This document shows positions 1,330 through 60,760 of a DNA stretch of 64,000 nucleotides, piece by piece. The stretch is from contig CM060881.1 of NCBI GenBank assembly GCA_030762935.1, positions 101,632,501 through 101,696,500 of the forward strand, written 5' to 3'. The DNA is from Hymenopus coronatus. Taxonomy: Eukaryota; Arthropoda; Insecta; Mantodea; Hymenopodidae. The notes beneath the pieces are model-generated. The model saw nothing but the letters and a program-made list of their open reading frames with translations. It searched no databases and was not told the origin of the DNA. Made by a program: the position numbers and the translations under genes. How positions within the stretch are numbered: the stretch's first letter is position 1; the number at the start of each line of letters is the position of its first letter.

Positions 1330-2530
1330 TTACCATTTTCTTAGCGCATATGTATAATGTATACAGTAGATCGGGAAGGTTATGTATTCGACTAAAATTT
1401 TTTATATTGAGATTGTACCAGAAATATGTTTGAGACCGTACCAGAAATATGTTTGAGACCCCCTGAATCCAGAAAAGCATTTTTAGATAAAACTCAGTGT
1501 GTGTCAGTGGACAGCATAATCAAAAACGAAAACTCCGTTGAATACCAAACTTGATATTTAAGTTTAGTGTTTTCCAAGGATGTTACACCAGGATTTTCAA
1601 GAAAATCCCCCAACCCCAAATTACCCTTTACATTGAACATTTTTTAAAGCTTTTATTTTTTCAAAAATGACTAACTATTTCGGTTAAAAGCCAAATATTT
1701 GAGACACTTACTTGACAAATAAAATGTATATTTTGAAATCTAAAAAATCCTTTGAAATGTTCTTCATACTTACTGACTTTTTGCACAACTGGAAAGCCGT
1801 AGGAGATAGGCTTTGACTTTCGTTTCGCAATCGTAAGAGATATGCCCCCTAAGACTTACAATTGGATGCCTAGGGGTCAGAAGCCTGCCGGGGAGCCAAC
1901 GGCACGAAACCACAGAATGGAGGACCTGTTACTAGGGGTCAACATGAGGACGTGGATGATTTGAAATGTAATTTAGAAAGATGATGATAGAGCAGTTGGT
2001 GGAATGAGTGGTGGGGGGAATCGGAACACTCGGAGAAAACCCACCTATACGCCGCTTCGTCCACCACGAATCCCACATGCAGGCGCTTGGGATCGAACTC
2101 GGGCCGTCTAGATGGGAGGCGAGCGGTTTAACCCTTGGACTTAGGAGATGTAGATTACACCAATACACACAATTTCCGTTCTTTACATTTTTTTTTTTAG
2201 AACTAACCTTATCGAGATATTCCTTGTTATTGCTTACACTTTTAAAATACTTATACTGTTCTCAAACGGAGGTCGGACTGATTCCTTTGTTTTACTCCGA
2301 GTCATGCAAAGAAGCAAGTTTCAATGAAAATTATTGCATGGCGACAGCTTTTAAAACATTTGACTACCGCTTTAGCATAGCATATTGCCTTAGTTCCATG
2401 AGTAACTAAGTAATAAGACCATTTTGCTAATGTTTATCTGGATTAGCATAGACTAGAAAAAATATACTCATTTTGAGTTGTAACACTTTTGATGGTGAAC
2501 AGTCATGTGAATGGAACACATCATAAGTTT
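1330..2530 (+). repeat. Family H dispersed repeat, interrupted by a SINE
   Basis: Forward copy of the roughly 1 kb repeat family that dominates this window. It begins with a diverged version of the ACTTTCTCTA end and passes through a region with TTTTCAAGAAAATCCCCC near 1590. It is interrupted by a SINE at about 1845-2140 and resumes to the typical end, which contains GTGAATGGAACACATCA at about 2505-2525. The CA microsatellite normally found internally is almost gone. No open frame is maintained. Confidence 0.75.
1845..2140 (-). mobile_element. tRNA-derived SINE, family B
   Basis: On the minus strand the right end is tRNA-like with a B-box-like GGGATCGAACTCGGGCC block (as read on the plus strand). 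The body resembles the element at 54641-54968, sharing GGGGAGCCAACGGCACGAAA and CCTAGGGGTCAG. It interrupts a family H repeat, and short similar words (TAAGAGATATG and TAGGAGATGTAG) flank it and may be a decayed target-site duplication. The local GC is much higher than its surroundings. Confidence 0.7.
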
Positions 2531-3179
2531 TCTAATACTTCCTTCATTAGAGGGTTATCAGAAGGACAAGGTGATATAGACAATATTTATGTATTACATT
2601 CTTTTAGATGTTTACAAATTTATGTAAATATTTAATATTTACTTTTAAAACCTTATAGCTTTCAAAAATTGTAAGATTCAATGAGTGAAGAAAACTCAAA
2701 AGAATATATAAAAACATCCCATTTTCAGTTTTATTTTAGAGCTATAAACTTAATCGCTGTATTTTAATAAAAAATACTTCTAATTATTCTGTCACAGATG
2801 TTATAATTCATTAGTTTTATTGATAACTTTAATGTCGTTAAACCATTATACTGTGCCTTTCAATTGCTTGAAACAAAATCATATATCCTATAGATAAAGG
2901 ATGATTTGAAAATAAGGAGGCGAAGCTTAGTATTTAACAAAGGTTTGTTAATTTTGATGCCAAGAATGGCATTACGTGTTTTCCTGGTTATTTCAATCAG
3001 TGTATGAGCACAACTATATACAATTTCAACTACCACTGCAGCACCCCATTTGTACCGGATGCAACTTGTTCATGGATACTACTCTGAGTATCTTCATCTT
3101 CATCTCATCGACACTCCAGCATGTCCTTCCTATGCAGGGGAAAATGCCGACTTGAATCATTTTCTATTTCATTGTTCCC

Positions 3180-5466
3180 GTTTTTTTCAAAATTCGATAA
3201 ACGCTAAAAAGTAATTTTTTTCAGGGAATGCATTTTTTAAATTACATTTAAAATACTAATTATATAAACATGATAATTTAACATTTATACATCTTTTGTA
3301 GGCACGATTTCGACTGTGTGTTTGACTTTTCAACAATTTATTTTTTATGTCAAAGTTGAGGATCAAAGTTTCCAGGTATTTTCAAAAGTCGATAAATGCC
3401 AAAATAGGAGTTATACGTATTGTTAATATATACATTCAAAGTGACTTCTTTCTGTTTATTTTTTATCTTTTTAACGTTAATTACAAAGTAGGTTTCTTTA
3501 TTGTTCACCTTGCATAGAAATGCAATATTATACTACAATACAACACTTCAATAATATAATTTTTAATAAATGTTCGAAAAACTGAAGTGCAAAATAGCAA
3601 AAAATTCAAATATTAAACACAATGCTAGCTACAAAAATACTAAACTGGAAGCCTGTTGATCACTTTCAACAATGTCCTTATAAAACCCTTCTGCTCCTTC
3701 TGGTACACTAAAATGTCTCATAAGTTTTAAGACATCCTTTTTCTTTTCCTTGTTGACCATGTTCTTCTTTTCCAAGGTGGCTGCTTTGTTTACTTCCAGC
3801 CTGCACTTTCTGGCTTTCCGTACTTCAACCTCTATAGGACTTTCATTATAAGTGTCCGCTACTGACAACAATACTTCCTTCTTAGACTTTTCATAAGTCA
3901 TCACTCGCTGAGAAGTTGTTTTGAAAGGCAGTTTAGATCGTAATTCTTTTAGTGCACTGGACTTGAGGTTCTTTGTTTCCCAATCTTTATTTAGTATCTT
4001 GACGATGCTATGTTGTTCCAGCACTTTATAGTATTCAGTTGGTGAAAGAATATCTTCTTTTTTTTCGGTAATCTTTTTCCATTCTCCCAAACACTCTGTC
4101 AGGAGGCATGTAGCTATGACCACGAATAGGGAAGTATTGTACCAGCTTAATAAACTTACTGCTTCCTTCCATAAAGGCCATTAGTATGTATATCATTACT
4201 ATATTTTTACTTTGGTCAGTACAGGAGGCAGAAAATAAATGAATTTCATTTGGACCGTTTTTTGGTTGAGAGGCCTGAAGGTTTCTGAGAAAATTCAGTA
4301 GAGCAGAGGCTACTTGATTGCATCCCATTCTGTTTCAAGCCAAGTATAAAAAGCAATCTTTTAATTTATTTGTGTTCGAAAATGAATCGTAATGCACAAA
4401 TTGTACAGGCAAACCTCTCTGGAATAGAATACTTCACCCACAGAGAGCTTGGGTATTGGCTGATTCTGTTCTATATCCTTCACTATTGTATAAACTTTTT
4501 GCGCGAAGTTTATGCAATCTATGGTTTGTTCTTAATTGATTCTTTTTTTCCAGATGTTGCACAGTTTTTAAATTCAAGAAACCAATCTTGCATGTTGAGT
4601 ATGTATCTGTATGGGGAGTTTTAAATGACAAATTAAAGCGTGATAGAAAACATGTTTGCACTTCGATAAAGAACAAGCAGGAAGCCCAGACGCCTGACTT
4701 TTTTACAGAAATGTTTCCTCATTTTGATTGTACTCAGCTCGGGTAGTAAATATCCTCTTTTGGACTTTTTCTTTGAATAGTGGCTGTCTCTACACCTACA
4801 TGAATTTATATCTTCCTATATAGCTTCTGTAACTTCCTTGTCTTTATCAGTGCGGTGCTCTCCCCCTCGGTTATCAGCTGGTAACTTCCCTGATATATGA
4901 TATTTGTTGGCCAAACAGTCCGTGCGAACAGGTAATATTTGGCATTTTCTTGATCTTGTTGAACTTCTTGGACGCTTTCACTCTTGACGTGGAGTTCCTA
5001 CCTCCCAAGCACTCAGTTACAAGCATACCATTTTGAATCACTTGTATTTACCTCCATTTTATAGTTATACAGCCAATTCTTATACTTAAACTTCTTCCCG
5101 ACAAAGCTGGCTTGAACTGACAATAATCAGCAGTTAATGTTGTTGTGTGAAACACTAATCTCTATTGTTGGTTCTGGCGGCATTTCCTTGCAGAAAACTC
5201 TCATGTTATCATTGACAATGACACCCTATATTGTTGTTCTACCTTCAGGTCTCTCAGAAACAAAGCCGAGTTTGCATTTATCGACTTTTGCGTTAACTGA
5301 ATGAGAGCAAATATCGAGTTTTACAAAAACTCATCGTTTTCAATACCCTATAAACACAGCAAAAATCGGATTTTGAACAGCTTCAACAGGTCATGCATGG
5401 CAACAAGCTTGATTTATAACTACAAAAGTCTGAAGAATTGAGCGTTTATCGACTTTTGAAAAAACA
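3180..5466 (-). mobile_element. Candidate DNA transposon with two nested inverted-repeat pairs
   Basis: The interval is bounded by a nearly perfect 25-bp inverted repeat: a T run, then CAAAA(T/G)TCGATAAACGCT at 3180-3205, and its complement at 5441-5465. About 200 bp inside is a second, perfect 17-bp inverted pair, CAAAAGTCGATAAATGC at 3383-3399 and its complement at 5274-5290; both pairs share the core CAAAAGTCGATAAA. The interior holds a broken minus-strand coding region (3629-4372) that resembles a transposase-like family. No clear target-site duplication was seen. The arrangement suggests a DNA transposon with terminal and subterminal binding sites; the superfamily is not established. Confidence 0.6.
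3629..4372 (-). pseudogene. Broken transposase-like ORF, DUF7869-like
   Basis: Two overlapping minus-strand frames (4328-4035 and 4123-3629) read as one protein split by a frameshift near 4035-4123, and an in-line extension upstream toward 4372 is cut by another frameshift near 4325. Recognisable blocks are GCNQVASALLNFL, a degenerate CTDQSKN block where relatives have a CGGQNKN-type motif, and a RGHSYMPPDRVFGRMEKD block. From memory this pattern belongs to the arthropod proteins annotated DUF7869, thought to be transposon derived. The downstream part is lysine rich. It lies between the inverted repeats of the candidate transposon. The family call rests on pattern memory only. Confidence 0.5.
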
Positions 5467-60260: not shown

Positions 60261-60359
60261 TTCTGGTGACACCCTCTGAAGACCTCTTTATTGGATGAAC
60301 TTTTCTGAATTTTGCAAAACTGGTAAACCGTAAGATATAGACAAAGCTTACCACACAAA

Positions 60360-60392
<33 letters not shown>

Positions 60393-60760
60393 AATATTTA
60401 AAGCACATATTTCATATACATTTTTTCGTGAAGTTGGCCGCATTTGAGATATTCCTTGTAATTGTTTCAGTTTTAAAACACTTAAACTATTCTCATATGG
60501 GAACTTGCCAGTTCCTGGCCACGCAAAGAAGCTGATTTCAATCCCATAGCTATCACATTTTATAACATTTAACTCTGGTTTAATCTAGTGAATTCCCTAA
60601 TGTGTCTTTTTCTTATAAGGAACTAAGTAATAACACCGGTTCTGCTAATGCTTATCTCGATTAGCATGAAGATGATACAAGAATAAGCTTATTAACAATA
60701 ATTTGTTACAGAGATGCAGAGAAAGTTATGCGCATGGAACACATCAGTTAGTTTTTTTTG
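60258..60760 (+). repeat. Family H copy, forward, truncated
   Basis: From ATCTTGAATCTTCTGGTG through GTAAACCGTAAGATATAGAC, a CA/TA tract (60358-60393), GAAGTTGGCCGCATTTG, GCTTATCTCGATTAGCATG and the end GAGAAAGTTATGCGCATGG with AACACATCAG. Confidence 0.8.

Follow-up and report, generated by a model that had tools for sequence, protein, structure and literature searches.

The closest described counterparts of the repeat family considered here are the DINE-1/INE-1 elements of Drosophila. According to the passages on their anatomy in Thomas et al. (PMC4067079) and Yang & Barbash (PMC2374699), these elements have a subterminal inverted repeat (subTIR) at or near the 5' end with an inverted repeat close inside it, a microsatellite near the 5' end, and a 3' subTIR that is followed by a short hairpin. 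They insert at TT without a long target duplication, and they have no open reading frame (ORF). We found all of these features in family H, a dispersed repeat that was first noticed in a 64,000-bp stretch of the genome of the mantis Hymenopus coronatus (contig CM060881.1 of assembly GCA_030762935.1, positions 101,632,501 to 101,696,500; hereafter, the window). Positions below are those of the window, and H is written in Helentron orientation, which is opposite to that used in the earlier note on this DNA.

Non-autonomous Helentrons (HINEs) have also been described in other animals. The parts of PMC4067079 that deal with HINE-Mo, from the mite Metaseiulus, report subTIRs, a 3' palindrome, T-rich targets, and a Helentron partner, all as in H; the same source states that HINEs were in the past misfiled as MITEs (miniature inverted-repeat transposable elements). 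The Cg_HINE elements of the Pacific oyster resemble H in being non-autonomous Helentrons at oligo-T sites, with a subTIR and a 3' palindrome, but they have satellite-like central arrays, and where PMC7492417 discusses their origin, the authors could link them to no autonomous Helentron. H differs from DINE-1 in its sequence: the subTIR is ATACCCGTTACTC in DINE-1 from D. melanogaster and ACTTTCTCTACA in H, the microsatellite is (GT)n instead of (CCGT)n(CTGT)n, and the H consensus lacks a central satellite block. Its copy number is also far above the 355–5,424 copies in the Drosophila counts from PMC2374699 that we compared.

We are highly confident that H is a non-autonomous Helentron, that is, a HINE, or rolling-circle transposon of the DINE-1 kind. 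The earlier note had proposed this from the architecture of the repeat, and the anatomy, the T-run targets, and relatives with Rep and helicase that share its ends now support it. H has HINE anatomy; it inserts into T-runs with no longer duplication; and the same genome contains Helentron relatives that share its 3' terminus and its 5' module.

Family H, as reported, is real. Comparing the window to itself showed heavy repetition, and nucleotide searches from two of the copies led to a single family with copies on both strands. When up to 2 mismatches are allowed, ACTTTCTCTACA has 50 matches in the window, versus 8.3 expected, and none of 100 shuffles reached 50. A profile built from 14 near-full copies had 66 matches (40 on the + strand and 26 on the - strand), which cover 24,227 of the 64,000 bp and span positions 1–60757. 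Fifty of the 66 have E ≤ 1e-10, and six include both ends within a single match; ten Markov shuffles of the window gave no matches. These E-values are too favourable, since the copies behind the profile come from the window that was searched; the independent genomic sample described below is free of that defect. The earlier note had reported about 20 copies on both strands, which was right about the strands and too low about the number. Only two exact occurrences of the 12-mer are found in the window, so the copies there are probably old.

The H consensus is about 870 bp long, with the termini ACTTTCTC... and ...CAGATTTTT. In order, it reads TTTTT-ACTTTCTCTA(T/C)ACGTACTATGTACATAGTGTATAGAGAAGGTATTG ... 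(GT)n ... GTAGAGAAAGT-C-ATGTG-AATGGAA-CACAT-CAGA-TTTTT, or T-run, 5' subTIR, nearby inverted repeat, (GT)n, 3' subTIR, hairpin, and T-run. The inverted motif at the very end on one side and about 20 bp inside the other end, the terminal hairpin (ATGTG-TTCCATT-CACAT), and the T- or A-runs at both ends, all described in the earlier note, are seen in copies and in the consensus alike. As in HINEs, the inverted subTIRs fall in the 11–15 bp length range, with the 5' one near-terminal and the 3' one internal. One correction is that there is a third occurrence of the motif, which forms an inverted repeat about 20 bp inside the end that has the terminal motif. The 5' subTIR is partly complementary to this second arm, in the manner of DINE-1; this end folds better than its shuffles do (z = -2.8), and 86.9% of cells in the 10-bp helix are paired across 19 ends. 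The hairpin that follows the 3' subTIR is present in the consensus, and 76.4% of its cells are paired in 19 ends. Covariation was not clearly above shuffles for the subTIR/inverted-repeat helix in 19 ends or for the 3' hairpin among 19 decayed copies. A lack of clear covariation is expected for copies that decay after insertion. The internal CA/GT microsatellite was found, as (GT)≥4 or a similar run near the 5' end, in 18 of the 28 matches that span this place. The claim that H has no ORF also stands: the longest stop-free stretch of the 870-bp consensus is 89 amino acids.

For the target sites, we used 34 full copies from a genomic sample (twenty 10-kb stretches taken at regular steps from C1, 3–57 Mb of 61, and from C2, 5–95 Mb of 181). 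Both ends could be scored for 30 of them. At least three T's are present on the left in 23 of the 30 and on the right in 27, and the most common length of the T-run is five on both sides (14/30 on the left and 9/30 on the right). Beyond the T-runs, the flanks share nothing above chance: the mean longest common substring is 3.20, versus 3.23 for permuted flanks (p = 0.60; 30 of the 34 copies). This agrees with the original description of insertion in A/T runs without a longer target duplication, although duplication of T alone is indistinguishable from T-run insertion in this comparison. The passages on termini in Thomas et al. (PMC4067079) and Yang & Barbash (PMC2374699) describe a similar ambiguity in the number of T's and the location of the ends.

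Sites that H interrupted can also be reconstructed. For the four H-in-H insertions in the window (Table 1), the joined flanks read through as family sequence. Another copy lies in a reverse-transcriptase/endonuclease ORF that we take to be Penelope-like; no family search returned Penelope, and a protein search with the joined ORF found no match. When the protein is joined across the insertion, it aligns to two uninterrupted paralogues in L023, with no gap where the two parts meet. Within a larger set of 40 sites from the sample, an apparent uninterrupted match was found for 13, and several of these matches are self-matches or weak. The empty-site evidence that we rely on is from L030, L021, and L005, along with the cases in the window.

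These same data bear on whether H could be a MITE that belongs to a cut-and-paste (DDE) transposon, has subterminal inverted repeats, and duplicates 5 bp of its target (TTTTT). The exactly five T's on the left in 14 of 30 copies, and the same mode on the right, would fit, as would L021, where the relatives mostly have TTTTT and the filled site has five T's on both sides. However, the 3' inverted repeat of H is internal and is followed by a hairpin, the flanks share nothing beyond the T-runs, and the shared ends (see below) belong to an element with Rep, helicase, and an endonuclease-like protein. No DDE partner with matching ends turned up, though no dedicated genome-wide search for DDE transposases was made. 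We consider it very unlikely that H is a MITE.

A non-autonomous Helentron would have had a partner with Rep and helicase, and the earlier note had suggested searching for one. The PF14214 profile has 112 matches in this genome, which comprises 3,126,739,099 bp in 384 contigs, whereas 14 control genomes have no match. Among 20 further Rep stretches, 18 cluster as canonical Helitrons, and the other two (L051 and L052) are of another type. The Rep of L051 and L052 contains RVEFQMRGSP, and the serine in motif 2 of Rep, RG(S)PH, is diagnostic of Helentrons according to the description of Rep motifs by Thomas et al. (PMC4067079). Of the 18 canonical-type Reps, 12 are readable at this residue, with leucine in 11 and methionine in one. 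The Rep of L051 has at least 58 matches in the genome, itself included, and 45 of the 58 have internal stops. Two loci, L053 and L054, encode Rep, a PIF1 helicase, and an endonuclease-like C-terminus. Pfam identified Helitron_like_N and PIF1 on both, and Exo_endo_phos_2 on L054 only, below the Pfam cut-off (20.3 of 27.4 bits). Taken together, these candidates have the three features of Helentrons (the serine in motif 2 of Rep, the PIF1 helicase, and the C-terminal endonuclease), of which the endonuclease is the weak point. The autonomous-type copies that we examined are decayed.

The Helentron loci have some other features. In L053 and in L054 (1895–3540), the N-terminal coding part contains tandem repeats with a unit of roughly 67 bp. 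Upstream of the Helentron coding region of L053 (L063; C21:292962500–292964700), a degenerate ACT-type microsatellite extends over more than 2 kb. L053 and L057 (C21:292951001–292963000) are Helentron copies in opposite orientations, with their Reps about 12.5 kb apart; they share 1,194 bp at 99.2% identity, while the other copies that we compared are about 67–87% alike. This pair is a recent local duplication or a palindrome. By raw count, many of the best Rep matches for Helitrons and Helentrons are on C21 (545 Mb, the largest scaffold seen and probably the X chromosome).

Canonical Helitrons begin with TC, have a hairpin and CTRR at the 3' end, and insert at AT. If H were a non-autonomous canonical Helitron, it would have been moved by the genome's canonical Helitrons, whose Reps outnumber the Helentron-type ones among the best PF14214 matches (18 of the 20 fetched). 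But H has subTIRs at T-runs, its consensus termini show neither the TC and CTRR ends nor the AT target, and the two canonical Helitron loci of 8 kb with Rep and helicase that we looked at (L031 and L032) lack H sequence at E ≤ 10. This makes a canonical Helitron origin extremely unlikely.

The Helentron candidates and H share sequence at both ends. We examined eight regions in which the 3' end of a Helentron was expected. In three of them (L055, L060, and L061), the homology among copies breaks off at a stretch that agrees with the last 37 bp of H at 34, 32, and 36 positions, respectively, while the maximum for shuffles is 26. When the final 1.4 kb of the L061 Helentron is compared with the window and the sample, 66 matches are found, all within its terminal ~40 bp, and 64 of the 66 fall at the 3' end of an H on the same strand. 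At the other end, four of seven loci (L066–L069) have the 5' module of H on the sense strand, at comparable distances upstream of the coding region. From the start of the module to the N-terminal match, the distances are about 1,605, 1,525, 1,349, and 1,590 bp in L066, L067, L068, and L069, respectively; the starts for L066 and L069 are extrapolated, as those pieces begin inside the module. The exact 5' terminus of L068 is CATTTTT-ACTTTCTCTACATGTACTATGTACATGGTGTATAGAGAAGGTATTG. Over 495 bp, the modules of L067 and L069 have 90% identity, versus 70–72% on average to generic H, and those of L066 and L068 are 89% identical over 149 bp, versus 74–76% to generic H. A 530-bp piece drawn at random from the sample contains as much H on a given strand with a probability of 0.18; as H takes up about 18% of the sample on each strand, the probability of four sense matches by chance is ~0.001. 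So relatives with Rep and helicase and the same ends are found in the same genome, at 3 of 8 loci for the 3' end and at 4 of 7 loci for the 5' module.

Thomas et al. (2014) assign elements to the same subfamily if their final 60 bp are at least 80% identical. H aligns with the Helentrons for no more than its terminal ~38 bp; this threshold defines subfamily rank and not membership in the HINE kind. H fits the HINE features that we tested, except for subfamily-level identity to the last 60 bp of a partner.

Several observations weigh against a Helentron origin for H. The terminal 5-bp hairpin is weak, being no more stable than its shuffles (z = -0.3 and -1.15), and the modal five T's on each side would also result from a 5-bp duplication of TTTTT. 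The endonuclease-like ORF of L053 has no match to a Pfam family. Five of the eight 3' regions (L056, L057, L058, L059, and L062) did not show the H end, and where sharing is seen, it extends for just ~38 bp, whereas the mite HINEs are plain deletion derivatives of their partners: HINE-Mo elements are 84–99.9% identical to theirs, in the comparisons given in PMC4067079, while H shares a 5' module at about 70–76% besides that short 3' end. Three of the seven 5' regions did not show the sense module: L063 is all microsatellite, L064 has an antisense H and a short sense remnant, and L065 contains the 3' half of an H. Upstream of its repeats, L054 has only antisense H, and its 5' end could not be placed. 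The similarity of L066 and L068 spans 149 bp, and ordinary pairs of H copies reach 92.5% (the mean is 76.7%). The loci and pieces for the 5' end were chosen after seeing earlier data, which weakens the probability of ~0.001. Finally, no locus was read end to end, and the 3' and 5' sharing were seen in separately read regions.

Read in the opposite orientation, H has A-runs at both ends, as a retroposon similar to a short interspersed element (SINE) might have if it inserted at A-runs. But none of the six Rfam tRNA matches in the window overlaps H, and H has two defined ends, no target duplication, and a partner with Rep and helicase. The variable 5' truncation and long target duplications that a retroposon would leave were not seen. 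The probability that H is a retroposon seems negligible.

As a non-autonomous Helentron, H most likely arose from a Helentron relative that lost its genes but kept its 5' module and 3' terminus; the sequence between these parts diverged, and the element was amplified in trans over a long period. H would retain the terminal signals of an autonomous Helentron, without its genes, and would be mobilised in trans. Rep would nick one end inside the T-run; the PIF1 helicase would unwind a single strand; the 3' subTIR and the hairpin would end strand transfer; and the strand would be joined into another T-rich site without duplicating any non-T target. We infer the enzymatic steps, the mobilisation in trans, and what the hairpin does from the pathway known for Helitrons and Helentrons, and the rolling-circle chemistry is that of established work on Helitrons and HUH enzymes.

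To estimate the abundance of H across the genome, we combined a count of the exact 12-mer with the sample from two chromosomes. The 12-mer occurs 178,513 + 178,239 times, versus 459 + 451 times for the reversed control. In the sample, H covers 70,276 of 200,000 bp, or 35.1% (standard error 4.2), ranging from 4% to 63% per stretch, with 75 five-prime ends and 67 three-prime ends; a shuffle of the sample contained no H. The sample has 41 exact 12-mers (205 per Mb), versus 114 per Mb over the whole genome, which suggests that the sampled stretches are richer in H than average. Scaled by the 12-mer, the share of H in the genome comes to about 20%, with about 650,000 five-prime ends; without scaling, the corresponding estimates are 35% and about 1.2 million. 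H thus seems to have grown to roughly a fifth to a third of the genome. The 34 full copies in the sample are at Kimura two-parameter distances of 0.077–0.226 from their own consensus, so H spread over a long time. Given this long spread and the decay of the autonomous-type copies, H is probably inactive or nearly so.

Copies of H in the window are listed in Table 1. The "tandem" arrangement that had been noted at 49134–52945 is partly nesting, with a younger copy splitting an older one, and tandem amplification as the cause of the array at 49–53 kb is rejected for that member, which is a nested insertion.

Table 1. Copies of family H in the window and the parts of one full copy.
Feature	Position	Strand	Evidence
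Full H copy in Penelope-like reverse-transcriptase/endonuclease ORF	57190..58022	-	profile; gapless alignment of joined flanks to paralogues
Full H copy (two profile matches), nested in older H (50007-50241 + 51009-51662)	50241..51002	-	joined flanks 71-77% to uninterrupted H across junction
5' subTIR of copy 50241-51002 (Helentron orientation)	50984..50995	-	motif scan
Inverted repeat, second arm, just inside 5' subTIR of copy 50241-51002	50954..50965	+	motif scan, folding
Internal CA/GT microsatellite of copy 50241-51002	50850..50864		read in sequence
3' subTIR of copy 50241-51002, inverted relative to the 5' one	50272..50283	+	motif scan
3'-terminal hairpin ATGTG-TTCCATT-CACAT of copy 50241-51002	50254..50270	+	read in sequence
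Full H copy nested in 5' part of older H (7636-7739)	6713..7615	-	profile, joined flanks
H copy nested antisense in older H (43698-44210 + 45262-45427), interrupted at about 44473-44865	44194..45269	-	profile, joined flanks
Full H copy nested in older H (33560-34054 + 34973-35187)	34055..34948	+	profile, joined flanks
Full H copy	8217..9123	-	profile
Full H copy	53303..54181	+	profile
Full H copy	55418..56276	-	profile
H copy without 3' end	49134..49962	-	profile
5' part of older H split by 50241-51002	51009..51662	-	profile, joined flanks
H copy without 3' end	51699..52393	-	profile
H copy without 3' end	29996..30794	+	profile
H copy in two pieces (1334-1811, 2147-2532)	1334..2532	+	profile
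H copy in two pieces (37649-38267, 38269-38402)	37649..38402	+	profile
3' half of H copy	60248..60757	+	profile
H copy without 5' end	12026..12745	+	profile

The window has other features besides H. Pfam, run on 9 of the 14 window ORFs of at least 120 amino acids, found no family. A six-frame regular-expression search of the window found no PIF1-type Walker A motif; the many matches to the Y motif in the six frames looked like chance. A reverse-transcriptase ORF at 48217–49011 is 51% identical to a protein from Periplaneta americana, in keeping with a dictyopteran host. A 183-amino-acid ORF at 3629–4180 (-) is 47% identical to one unnamed database protein and has no Pfam family. The six tRNA-model matches are at 357–472(-), 942–1058(-), 11689–11805(+), 20757–20872(+), 26325–26441(+), and 44539–44594(+). 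Five of the six are 116–117 bp long with an insert, and all are in self-similar DNA; they probably represent a tRNA-derived SINE family. A 55-bp stretch at 33075–33129 is 96% identical to part of L053 and 83–98% identical to sequence in L014, L017, L022, L026, and L027. It is a very short repeat.

Two conserved 20-mers of H had no match in a pattern scan of viral and bacterial/archaeal contigs. We also searched titles and abstracts for the letters of the motif, for Helentrons or DINE-1 in cockroaches or termites, for Helentron abundance, and for Helitrons in polyneopterans or Hymenopus, and none of the titles and abstracts listed (the top results for Helentrons or DINE-1 in cockroaches or termites, for Helentron abundance, and for Hymenopus) described H; the letters of the motif led to papers on zebrafish clock genes and Chlamydia suis. 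Subscription papers, Repbase, and Dfam were outside the scope of this search. On this basis, H is a new family of a known kind (HINE) with exceptional abundance, and it may have an entry in Repbase or Dfam. The abundance of Helitrons as a class in H. coronatus is already in print: the repeat annotation in PMC12908712 reports abundant Helitrons and an ancient burst of rolling-circle elements. That annotation, as presented there, is at the level of the class, and H may sit inside it undescribed. Other animals are also rich in Helitrons, with reported shares of 28% in the house fly (in the genome composition given in PMC6327564) and 17–22% in morabine grasshoppers (in the figures of PMC7754599). 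So abundance of the class is not new, but the share of one family may be.

We propose, tentatively and with slightly more doubt than belief, that one family of Helentrons without genes gave rise to between about a fifth and a third of this 3.1-Gb mantis genome, with an extrapolated 0.65 to 1.2 million five-prime ends. This would be more DNA than any single rolling-circle family has contributed in the parts of the literature that we compared, as against tens (a lower bound) of mostly broken Helentron-type Reps. If this is true, then H shows how little terminal sequence, ~38 bp of the 3' end of its partner, a rolling-circle parasite needs in order to outgrow its helper. H can be connected both to its targets and to a partner, whereas the oyster elements could not be linked to one. 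Since H is apparently among the main constituents of a large insect genome, it is relevant to the question of how genome size is set by rolling-circle elements.

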